DNA from: Micromonospora sp. MH99
Lineage (GTDB): Bacteria; Actinomycetota; Actinomycetes; Mycobacteriales; Micromonosporaceae
Assembly (NCBI RefSeq): GCF_021442385.1
Contig: NZ_MUZA01000003.1
Location: 1 to 64,000 of the forward strand
Direction of reading: 5' to 3'
DNA: 64,000 bases
Shown here in pieces: positions 30,810-32,760 of this stretch; positions within the stretch are counted from its first letter, which is position 1, and each line of letters begins with the position of its first letter. A model generated the notes under the pieces. The model saw nothing but the letters and a program-made list of their open reading frames with translations. It was not told where the DNA came from and ran no database searches. The position numbers were made by a program, and so were the translations under genes.

Positions 30810-31979
30810 GTGACCGGCGCGGACGGCGGTGAAGGGGTGACGGTGGCGGACTGGCTGGCGGCGCTCGATCGCCGCGCGCAGTTGCGGGCGAAGGCCGGCC
30901 TGACCCGTCGGCTGCACCCGCGTCCCGCCGACGACCGGATGACCGACCTGGCCGGCAACGACTACCTCGGCCTGGCCACCCACCCGGAGGTCACCGCCGC
31001 CGCCACGGCGGCACTGTCGGCGTACGGGCTGGGAGCGACCGGGTCGCGGCTGGTGCGCGGCTCGACCGACGCGCACGAGGCCCTGGAGGTCGAGCTGGCG
31101 CAGTGGCTGGGCACCGACCGGGCTCTCGTCTTCTCCTCCGGATACCTGGCCAACCTCGGCGCGCTGCGGGCCCTCGTCCAGCCCCGGACCCTGCTCGTCT
31201 CGGACGCGCACAACCACGCGTCGCTGATCGACGGCTGCCGGATCTCCGGCGCGGAGACGGTGGTCAGCGCGCACGCCGACGTGACGGCGGTGGCCGCCGC
31301 TCTGGCGGTCGCGCCGGGACGCCCGGCGGTGGTGGTCACCGAGTCGGTCTTCTCGGTCGACGGCGACCTCGCTCCGCTGGCCGAGTTGCACGCGGTGGCC
31401 CGCCGCTACGGCGCTCTGCTGCTGGTCGACGACGCCCACGCGCTCGGCGTGACCGGTCCGTCCGGTGCCGGCGCGGTGGCTGCCGCCGGGCTGGCCGGCG
31501 AGCCGGACGTGGTGGTCACGGCCACCCTCTCCAAGGCGCTCGGCGGCGCGGGTGGGGTGGTCGCCGGCCCGGCCGAGTTCGTCCGGCACCTGGTCGAGAC
31601 GGGCCGTACGTTCATCTTCGACACCGCGCTGCCGCCGGCCGTCGCGGCCGGTGTGCACGCCGCGCTGCGGCTGGCCCGGGCCGGCGACGATCTGCGCGCC
31701 GAACTGGCCGACCGGGTGGCGTTGGCGGTCGGTCGACTGGGCGCCGCCGGTTTGGCCGTTTCCGCGCCGGACGCCGCGGTGATCTCGGTGACGGCGCCTG
31801 GCCCGGAGGCGGCGACCGCCTGGGCCGCCGACTGCCGGGACCGGGGAGTCGCGGTGGGCTGCTTCCGGCCGCCCTCCACCCCGGACAGCCGCTCCCGGTT
31901 GCGCCTGACCGTCAGCGCCGGGGTGCCCCGGGCGGATTTCGAGCGGGCGCTGGACGTCATCGTGGAGTGTGCGCCGTGA
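30810..31979 (+). CDS. bioF: 8-amino-7-oxononanoate synthase BioF
   Basis: A 389-residue PLP-dependent alpha-oxoamine synthase that condenses pimeloyl-ACP/CoA with alanine. Seen: [69 protein letters not shown] and the PLP lysine in [13 protein letters not shown]. The first GTG (30810) gives a normal-length N-terminus; GTG 30843 has a better GAAGGGG ribosome site and is an alternative. The stop lies inside a direct repeat that also covers the start of bioD. Confidence 0.93.
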
Positions 31980-32043
31980 GCGCGAGGAGTGAGCCGGGTT
32001 TGCGAGCCCCGCAGTCGCGAACCGAGTGTGCGCCGTGAGCGCG
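31965..32043 (+). repeat. 20-bp direct repeat around a 39-bp insert at the bioF-bioD junction
   Basis: GAGTGTGCGCCGTGAGCGCG occurs at 31965-31984 and 32024-32043, with 39 bp between. Each copy contains a GTGA stop/start overlap. The first copy ends bioF (TGA 31977) and opens a 20-codon frame at GTG 31976, whose own TGA (32036) overlaps the bioD GTG (32035). Removing one 59-bp unit restores a direct GTGA overlap of bioF and bioD. Confidence 0.85.
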
Positions 32044-32760
32044 TGGGAGGGGCCGGTGCTGGTCACCGGCACCGACACCGAGGTGGGCAAGACCGTGGTC
32101 ACCGCGGCGATCGCGGCGGCCGCGCAGGGGGCCGGCCTGCGGGTGGCGGTGGTCAAGCCGGGTCAGACGGGTACGGCCGGTGGGGAGCCGGGCGACGTGG
32201 ACGTGGTCAACCGGCTGGCGGCCCCGGTGACCGGCCGTACGCTGGCGAGTTTCCCGGATCCGCTCGCCCCGCTGGCCGCTGCCCGGGTCGCGGACCTGCC
32301 GCCGCTGGAGCTGTACGCGGCGGTGGACGCCGTCCGCGAGGAGGCGGACAAGCACGACCTGGTCCTGGTCGAGGGGGCGGGTGGTCTGCTGGTGCCGATG
32401 GGGCTGCGGCCGTCCGGTGAGCCGTGGACGATGGCCGACCTGGCGGTGTCGCTCGGCGCCCCGGCGGTGGTGGTCACCCGCGCCGGTCTGGGCACGCTCA
32501 ACCACACCGCGCTGACCCTGGAGGCGCTGGACCGCCGTGCGGTGCCGGCCGGCGTGGTGATCGGCGCGTGGCCGGGGTCGCCGGAGCTGGTGCACTGGAC
32601 GAACCTCACCGACCTGGTGCCGAACCTGCTGGGCGCGGTGCCGGCCGGCGCCGGTGCGATGGACCCGGGGGTGTTCCGGCGGTCGGCGCCGGGTTGGCTC
32701 ACTCCGGCGTTGCACGGTGTGCTCGACGACTGGCGGGTCTGGGCCGAGGAGAGTAGCTGA
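32035..32760 (+). CDS. bioD: Dethiobiotin synthetase BioD
   Basis: A 241-residue ATP-dependent carboxylase closing the ureido ring of dethiobiotin. It opens VSAWEGPVLVTGTDTEVGKTVV, the diagnostic P-loop, followed by VVKPGQTG, LVEGAGGLLVPMG and VVVTRAGLGTLNHTALTLEAL. GTG 32035 is chosen because it forms a GTGA overlap inside the second repeat copy. bioF and bioD are in one transcription unit, divergent from bioB. Confidence 0.93.
   Translation: MSAWEGPVLVTGTDTEVGKTVVTAAIAAAAQGAGLRVAVVKPGQTGTAGGEPGDVDVVNRLAAPVTGRTLASFPDPLAPLAAARVADLPPLELYAAVDAVREEADKHDLVLVEGAGGLLVPMGLRPSGEPWTMADLAVSLGAPAVVVTRAGLGTLNHTALTLEALDRRAVPAGVVIGAWPGSPELVHWTNLTDLVPNLLGAVPAGAGAMDPGVFRRSAPGWLTPALHGVLDDWRVWAEESS

Follow-up and report, generated by a model that had tools for sequence, protein, structure and literature searches.

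The 59 bp that lie between the biotin biosynthesis genes bioF and bioD of Micromonospora sp. MH99 are one copy of a dispersed, often tandem repeat family. The family prefers sites directly before start codons, follows a frame arithmetic, is polymorphic between occupied and empty sites, and sits within a conserved chain of stop-start overlaps. It is likely that it represents a mobile repeat, neutral for translational coupling, which inserts 5' of starts and at this locus relays ribosomes from bioF through a mini-frame to bioD; translation, re-initiation and transposition are what we infer in this reading.

Repeat unit at the bioF-bioD junction

The window analysed, a stretch of 64,000 nucleotides from contig NZ_MUZA01000003.1, carries on its forward strand bioF, encoding a predicted 8-amino-7-oxononanoate synthase (30810-31979, with a possible alternative start at 30840), and bioD, encoding a predicted dethiobiotin synthase (32035-32760), both taken from the list of open reading frames. 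In a Pfam scan the last 300 residues of the bioF product matched the aminotransferase class I/II family (PF00155), and bioF was named on this match together with the operon context; the bioD product matched AAA_26 (PF13500), and its name was likewise given from the match and the context.

A 20-bp sequence stands twice on the forward strand as a direct repeat, its copies at 31965-31984 and at 32024-32043 being separated by 39 bp, just as the first-pass annotation of this region had described. The window has four close pairs of identical 20-mers (not more than 100 bp apart), of which the bioF-bioD pair is one; none of 20 first-order Markov sequences as long as the window had any such pair. The stop codon of bioF (TGA, 31977-31979) lies inside a GTGA at 31976-31979, and the start codon of bioD (GTG, 32035-32037) lies inside another GTGA at 32035-32038. 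A frame of 20 codons, starting with the GTG at 31976 and stopping at the TGA at 32036-32038, overlaps the bioF stop and the bioD start by 4 nt each (31976-32038, forward strand); this mini-frame, also pointed out in the annotation, is evident from the sequence and from the chain test described below.

The proposed insert length of 59 bp held, and its limits are better placed at 31976-32034 than on the copies of the 20-bp repeat, as judged from aligned tandem copies and from the empty sites of relatives. The forward-strand unit has a GTGA head, a 48-bp core of the dispersed family (31976-32023), assigned to the GAGTGAGCCGGGTTTGCGAGCCCC subfamily by genome-wide matches and aligned copies, and an 11-bp tail (32024-32034), which has the same letters as the end of bioF at 31965-31975. 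In the 20-bp repeat, the final 9 bp correspond on one side to the element head GTGAGCGCG and on the other to the similar start of bioD. An 11-bp target-site duplication is clean for the window copy, the tail of which is a poor Shine-Dalgarno match.

Distribution of the repeat family

Sought elsewhere in the genome and in the genus, the insert was found in many other places, and the earlier suggestion of a short repetitive element with a coding-compatible frame is true for most copies examined. That reading needs some correction, as the family is large and forms tandems, its peptide is unconserved, and its design is already known in kind from the mycobacterial MIRUs. The 131 bases around the insert have at least 44 matches in the own genome (6.86 Mb), many of them in tandem, 40 of 131 first-look candidates having been scored for this count. 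Exact 20-bp heads occur 23 times in the own genome, and the reversed control has none, not even when three mismatches are allowed. The loosest pattern of the 3' core, allowing three mismatches, gave 60 matches against 14 in the reversed control, and because of these 14 control matches copies were counted at one mismatch; 41 copies of the 3' core are present in the own genome at this threshold.

The repeat was found in all 121 sampled Micromonospora genomes, with 4 to 77 copies each, and the reversed control gave one match in each of two of the same genomes. In an order-wide sample the core pattern was present in all 34 Micromonospora genomes and in 2 of 8 from other genera of the family, and beyond the family it was at chance level (5 of 207 genomes, against 4 for the reversed control). 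The head pattern was found in 38 of 38 genomes of the genus and at least once in 49 of 162 from other genera of the family, where its reversed control matched in 7 of 162; many of the matching genomes of these genera carry one or two copies and some carry many. The head copies in other genera of the family number 53 in G405, 18 in G401 and 42 in G425. The spread of the head is patchy, 20 of 44 sampled genera being without a match and many having one or two.

The units begin with GTGAGCGCGAGGAG and end with a tail, such as GGAAGGTGGC, directly before the next start. Two main subfamilies are distinguished by the middle part, which is GAGTGAGCCGG.TTGCGAGCCCC in one and GAGTGCAGCGCAGCGGAGCCCC in the other, and a third, shorter form has 5 bp less than the first subfamily (head-to-core distance of 23 versus 28). 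The core DNA is well conserved among the aligned copies. Arrays hold one to four units, and inside them the units are 56-62 bp apart, with one exception among 53 spacings.

Insertion sites and flanking genes

A catalogue of 83 arrays, comprising 136 units with canonical heads, was compiled from the own genome and from relatives; its array and copy counts include kin by descent, neither copies nor loci being de-duplicated. Because the head filter required DTGA, 23 of the 159 core matches fell out. Also set aside before counting were the own-genome copy L175 and the Kocuria loci L113 and L114. The spacing and Shine-Dalgarno counts cover the 77 arrays in which a DTGA follows the last unit, 6 of the 83 having none, and the upstream and downstream frame tests each omit one array that is too near the locus end.

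As is characteristic of MIRU-type elements, the repeat is inserted at start codons or DTGA sites along the direction of the genes. Of 82 arrays, 64 have the TGA of the first unit in the frame of clear upstream coding on the same strand, 2 have it in another frame and 16 show no clear coding there. The 76 downstream starts assessed comprise 68 that share the frame of clear coding, 5 that do not and 3 that are unclear. Two other traits of this type were also found, namely an internal small ORF with -4 overlaps to the neighbouring ORFs, and an occurrence that is both dispersed and tandem, with variable copy number. The first unit begins with GTGA in 79 arrays and with ATGA in 4 (n = 83), whereas the start after the array is GTGA in 58, ATGA in 17 and TTGA in 2 (n = 77). 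Since the head of the first unit is nearly always GTGA and the following start is more varied, the first letter of the head is apparently the element's own.

Across 77 arrays, the base at position -1 is common to the array start and the following start at a frequency of 0.68 versus 0.31 expected, position -3 is shared at 0.43 versus 0.28 expected, and little else is shared. The mean identical suffix was 1.79, compared with 0.59 in shuffled pairings, none of 2000 of which was as high. The sharing of base -1 fits a short target duplication, the signal being short and noisy. A clean 11-bp target-site duplication was rejected as a rule for the family, as only the bases adjacent to the start are shared across the 77 arrays.

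At ten own-genome junctions, selected by the author, a Pfam family was assigned to 19 of the 20 flanking proteins. Clear partner pairs were NADH dehydrogenase chains 6 and 4L, the 20-kDa and 30-kDa subunits of the same enzyme, BioF and BioD, a chorismate-binding enzyme and Trp_oprn_chp, the ATPase and the membrane part of an ABC transporter, and two PmbA/TldD proteins. The remaining four junctions are flanked by SIS and ROK, cupin and ketoacyl synthase, GCS2 and FGE-sulfatase, and an SbcC-like protein with a partner of no family. Among the own-genome loci, units lie between NADH dehydrogenase genes at L030 and L031 and between ABC transporter genes at L028. At L014 (about position 1704) a unit is in frame with the gene that follows, no DTGA start lying between them, and the protein may begin with the repeat peptide.

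Frame arithmetic, tails and the proposed mechanism

The spacing from the last head to the next DTGA is 2 modulo 3 in 61 arrays, 0 in 15 and 1 in a single one (n = 77). The head-to-core distances are 28, 26 and 23 bp, the remainders mainly 31, 33 and 33 bp, and the totals mainly 59, 59 and 56 bp; core and tail lengths compensate for each other, and thus one and the same core DNA falls into different frames, with a changed peptide and an unchanged relay. Inside arrays the spacing is 0 modulo 3 in 29 cases, 2 in 20 and 1 in 4 (n = 53), a spacing of 60 bp being common (22 of 53), and spacings of 0 modulo 3 join units in frame. The next DTGA is the exact end of 78 of the 136 units, and 42 continue in frame with the start that follows; the others are out of frame (5), have an early stop (4) or were not judged (7). 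The stop-start overlaps at both ends, which the annotation had taken as a layout for coupling, are thereby kept in most copies examined, and re-initiation itself would be the predicted consequence of this layout.

A Shine-Dalgarno-like run of at least 5 nt is present in the tail in 52 of 77 arrays, compared with 54 of 770 random 13-mers, and a 5-nt Shine-Dalgarno match is also found before the first unit in 30 of 77 sites.

The proposed mechanism is that a mobile, tandem-forming repeat would insert just 5' of a start codon in a DTGA context, mostly at target sites between neighbouring genes on the same strand. The leading GTGA of the element would restore the stop of the upstream gene; as 59 bp is 2 modulo 3, the mini-frame would end in a TGA that overlaps the downstream start, and the tail would often supply a Shine-Dalgarno-like sequence. 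Ribosomes finishing bioF might then re-initiate on the mini-frame and subsequently on bioD, so that the insertion would be nearly neutral for coupled expression.

The bioF-bioD junction in relatives

The junctions of relatives were compared in a set of 102 rows, of which 10 without a bioF motif upstream were dropped, the remaining 92 representing 78 distinct junctions. A quick tree of 77 rows, obtained after length filters, was built from pieces of bioF and bioD excluding the junction; some of its forks are weak, and 26 of its 74 inner branches were reported open. The junctions hold 0 to 4 units. The direct overlap of the two genes, proposed in the annotation as a GTGA layout before insertion, does exist, such empty forms, with GTGA or ATGA, being found for example in M. 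arborensis (L045), M. saelicesensis (L046), M. trifolii (L051) and Salinispora (L093-L095). The junction is occupied in 34 of the 77 tree rows, with at least 17 changes of occupancy by parsimony, a count that does not separate gain from loss. As 200 shuffles of the labels gave 20-30 changes, occupancy is partly inherited yet labile, and the changes on this tree fit mobility. Within one five-row group (support 82), M. saelicesensis has no unit and M. noduli has three.

Among named records M. lupini provides the best bioD match (98%). The nearest relatives, M. lupini (L041) and L179, have no unit and carry 9 extra bp, GTGAGCGCC, before GTGAGCGCG at the start of bioD. This GTGAGCGCC could be either a small duplication or pre-insertion form, or a scar of imperfect unit loss.

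Of the 78 distinct junctions, 77 connect bioF to bioD by a chain of 4-nt stop-start overlaps that follow one another without a break; L183 is the sole exception. In 43 of the 77 the route is direct, including 8 with a unit read through by bioF, and in 34 it passes via one to four frames. Random in-silico deletions of 1-2 bp in occupied junctions broke 921 of 1650 chains. Any 59-bp unit that is intact and headed by DTGA forms the chain of itself, and sites occupied by such units therefore do not prove selection independently. The chain is also kept in two recognisable truncated units, of 32 bp (L056/L196) and 38 bp (L188), and in five inserts of 20, 29, 32, 41 and 116 bp without a recognisable unit. 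In 11 rows, not all of them distinct, bioF reads through a unit or a piece of one and nevertheless finishes at a DTGA belonging to the chain, which is that of bioD except in L061, where it is the DTGA of the next unit. At the other loci the flanking genes are linked by a chain in 69 of 75 arrays and the chain is broken in 6, and in-silico deletions broke 1638 of 3450 chains; 7 of 82 arrays, near the locus end or with unclear coding frame, were left out here, and the window copy was excluded.

Several junctions have further peculiarities. L071 and L080 have no repeat, and bioF is linked to bioD via two frames, the last of which ends 8 bp on (GTGACGTCGTGA). L110 and L182 have an apparent decayed older unit ahead of the intact unit between bioF and bioD, and in L042 and L053 only a piece resembling a decayed unit is left, as an extension of bioF.

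Alternative explanations

A one-off local tandem duplication in the bioF-bioD spacer, with an accidental frame, would account for the 20-bp direct repeat and for a tail that copies the last 11 bases of bioF, but the 47-48-bp core is present at many loci of the own genome, and no sampled genome of the genus is without it; this explanation was rejected on account of the dispersed copies and can be regarded as practically negligible. A more serious alternative, albeit an unlikely one, is that of a neutral interspersed repeat at gene junctions with no translational role, the frames being a by-product of fixed unit length. The automatic formation of the chain by intact units, the unconserved peptide and the common 60-bp spacings inside arrays are all in agreement with it. 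What argues against it is that subfamilies of different core length have compensating tails, and that the chain persists in the truncated units and in the inserts without a recognisable unit, in the two-frame junctions and in the read-through rows.

REP/BIME sequences with a RAYT transposase occur as short dispersed intergenic copies, and the Micromonospora repeat is also short, dispersed and located between genes. A palindromic element of this kind, moved by a Y1 (RAYT) transposase, is nevertheless very improbable here: folding compared with shuffles was unremarkable (z of -0.90 for the window unit and -0.22 for the L013 unit), and Y1_Tnp was detected in 10 of 31 genomes of the genus, as against the presence of the repeat in 121 of 121, with 0 matches in the own genome. 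A REP moved by RAYT was rejected, the units tested showing no palindromic folding and the own genome no partner Y1. A structured or palindromic RNA element was rejected too, there being no special folding and no Rfam family; between 31700 and 32300 no family reached the gathering score, the one match being RF01074 with 19.7 bits versus 40. It is also improbable, somewhat less so than the REP/BIME reading, that the 20-residue peptide is functional or that the unit is a promoter or protein-binding site regulating the downstream gene. Such roles could explain the good conservation of the core DNA, and promoter activity is reported for the MIRU-bearing senX3-regX3 spacer of Mycobacterium tuberculosis (PMC4213456). 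A functional peptide was rejected, however, because the conserved 3' core is read in different frames by the subfamilies, giving different peptides, and units also occur as N- or C-terminal extensions (L014 and the 11 junction rows).

Comparison with known repeats

Rickettsia palindromic elements are palindromic, lie within genes and are tolerated by keeping the frame. The Micromonospora repeat resembles them in being tolerated in a coding context by frame-keeping, and differs in having no special folding and in sitting at start codons; the lack of special folding, together with the absence of Y1 transposase matches in the own genome, also sets it apart from REP/BIME.

The closest likeness is to the MIRUs, mycobacterial interspersed repetitive units (Supply et al. 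1997, as cited in PMC12548453). According to a 2025 review (PMC12548453), MIRUs are apparently mobile elements that become inserted at start codons and contain an ORF with coupling at -4; those of senX3-regX3 occur as several copies side by side, with lengths of 77 and 53 bp (PMC4213456). They share with the Micromonospora repeat a short and repetitive nature, putative mobility, insertion at start codons and an internal ORF at -4 spacing; their 77 and 53 bp are 2 modulo 3, as are the 59, 56 and 62 bp of the Micromonospora repeat. The differences are another host family, a core pattern at chance level outside Micromonosporaceae, the two core subfamilies with a shorter form and the Shine-Dalgarno-like tail. 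Start-codon insertion, the ORF at -4 and the same modulo-3 rule suggest that the Micromonospora repeat most likely works like a MIRU, to which it is likened by described design and not by letters. Among the open-licence literature matches listed there is no report of such a repeat in Micromonospora, and one may be in print elsewhere. It is possible, and proposed here only tentatively, that the repeat belongs to a separately evolved, MIRU-like mobile class of Micromonosporaceae, which is unrelated to MIRUs in sequence, targets starts and brings its own stop, start and ribosome-binding sequence. If this is true, start-codon-targeting coupling repeats would have arisen more than once in actinobacteria.

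Implications

For genome annotation the family calls for caution, since a protein may be extended at its N- or C-terminus by the peptide of a repeat unit. The findings suggest that MIRU-like elements are of a wider actinobacterial kind. The bioF-bioD junction offers a natural experiment on translational coupling, in which one gene pair is separated by 0-4 relay frames, truncated units or read-through fusions, and the surviving chain in nearly all of its distinct junctions makes the importance of -4 coupling testable.
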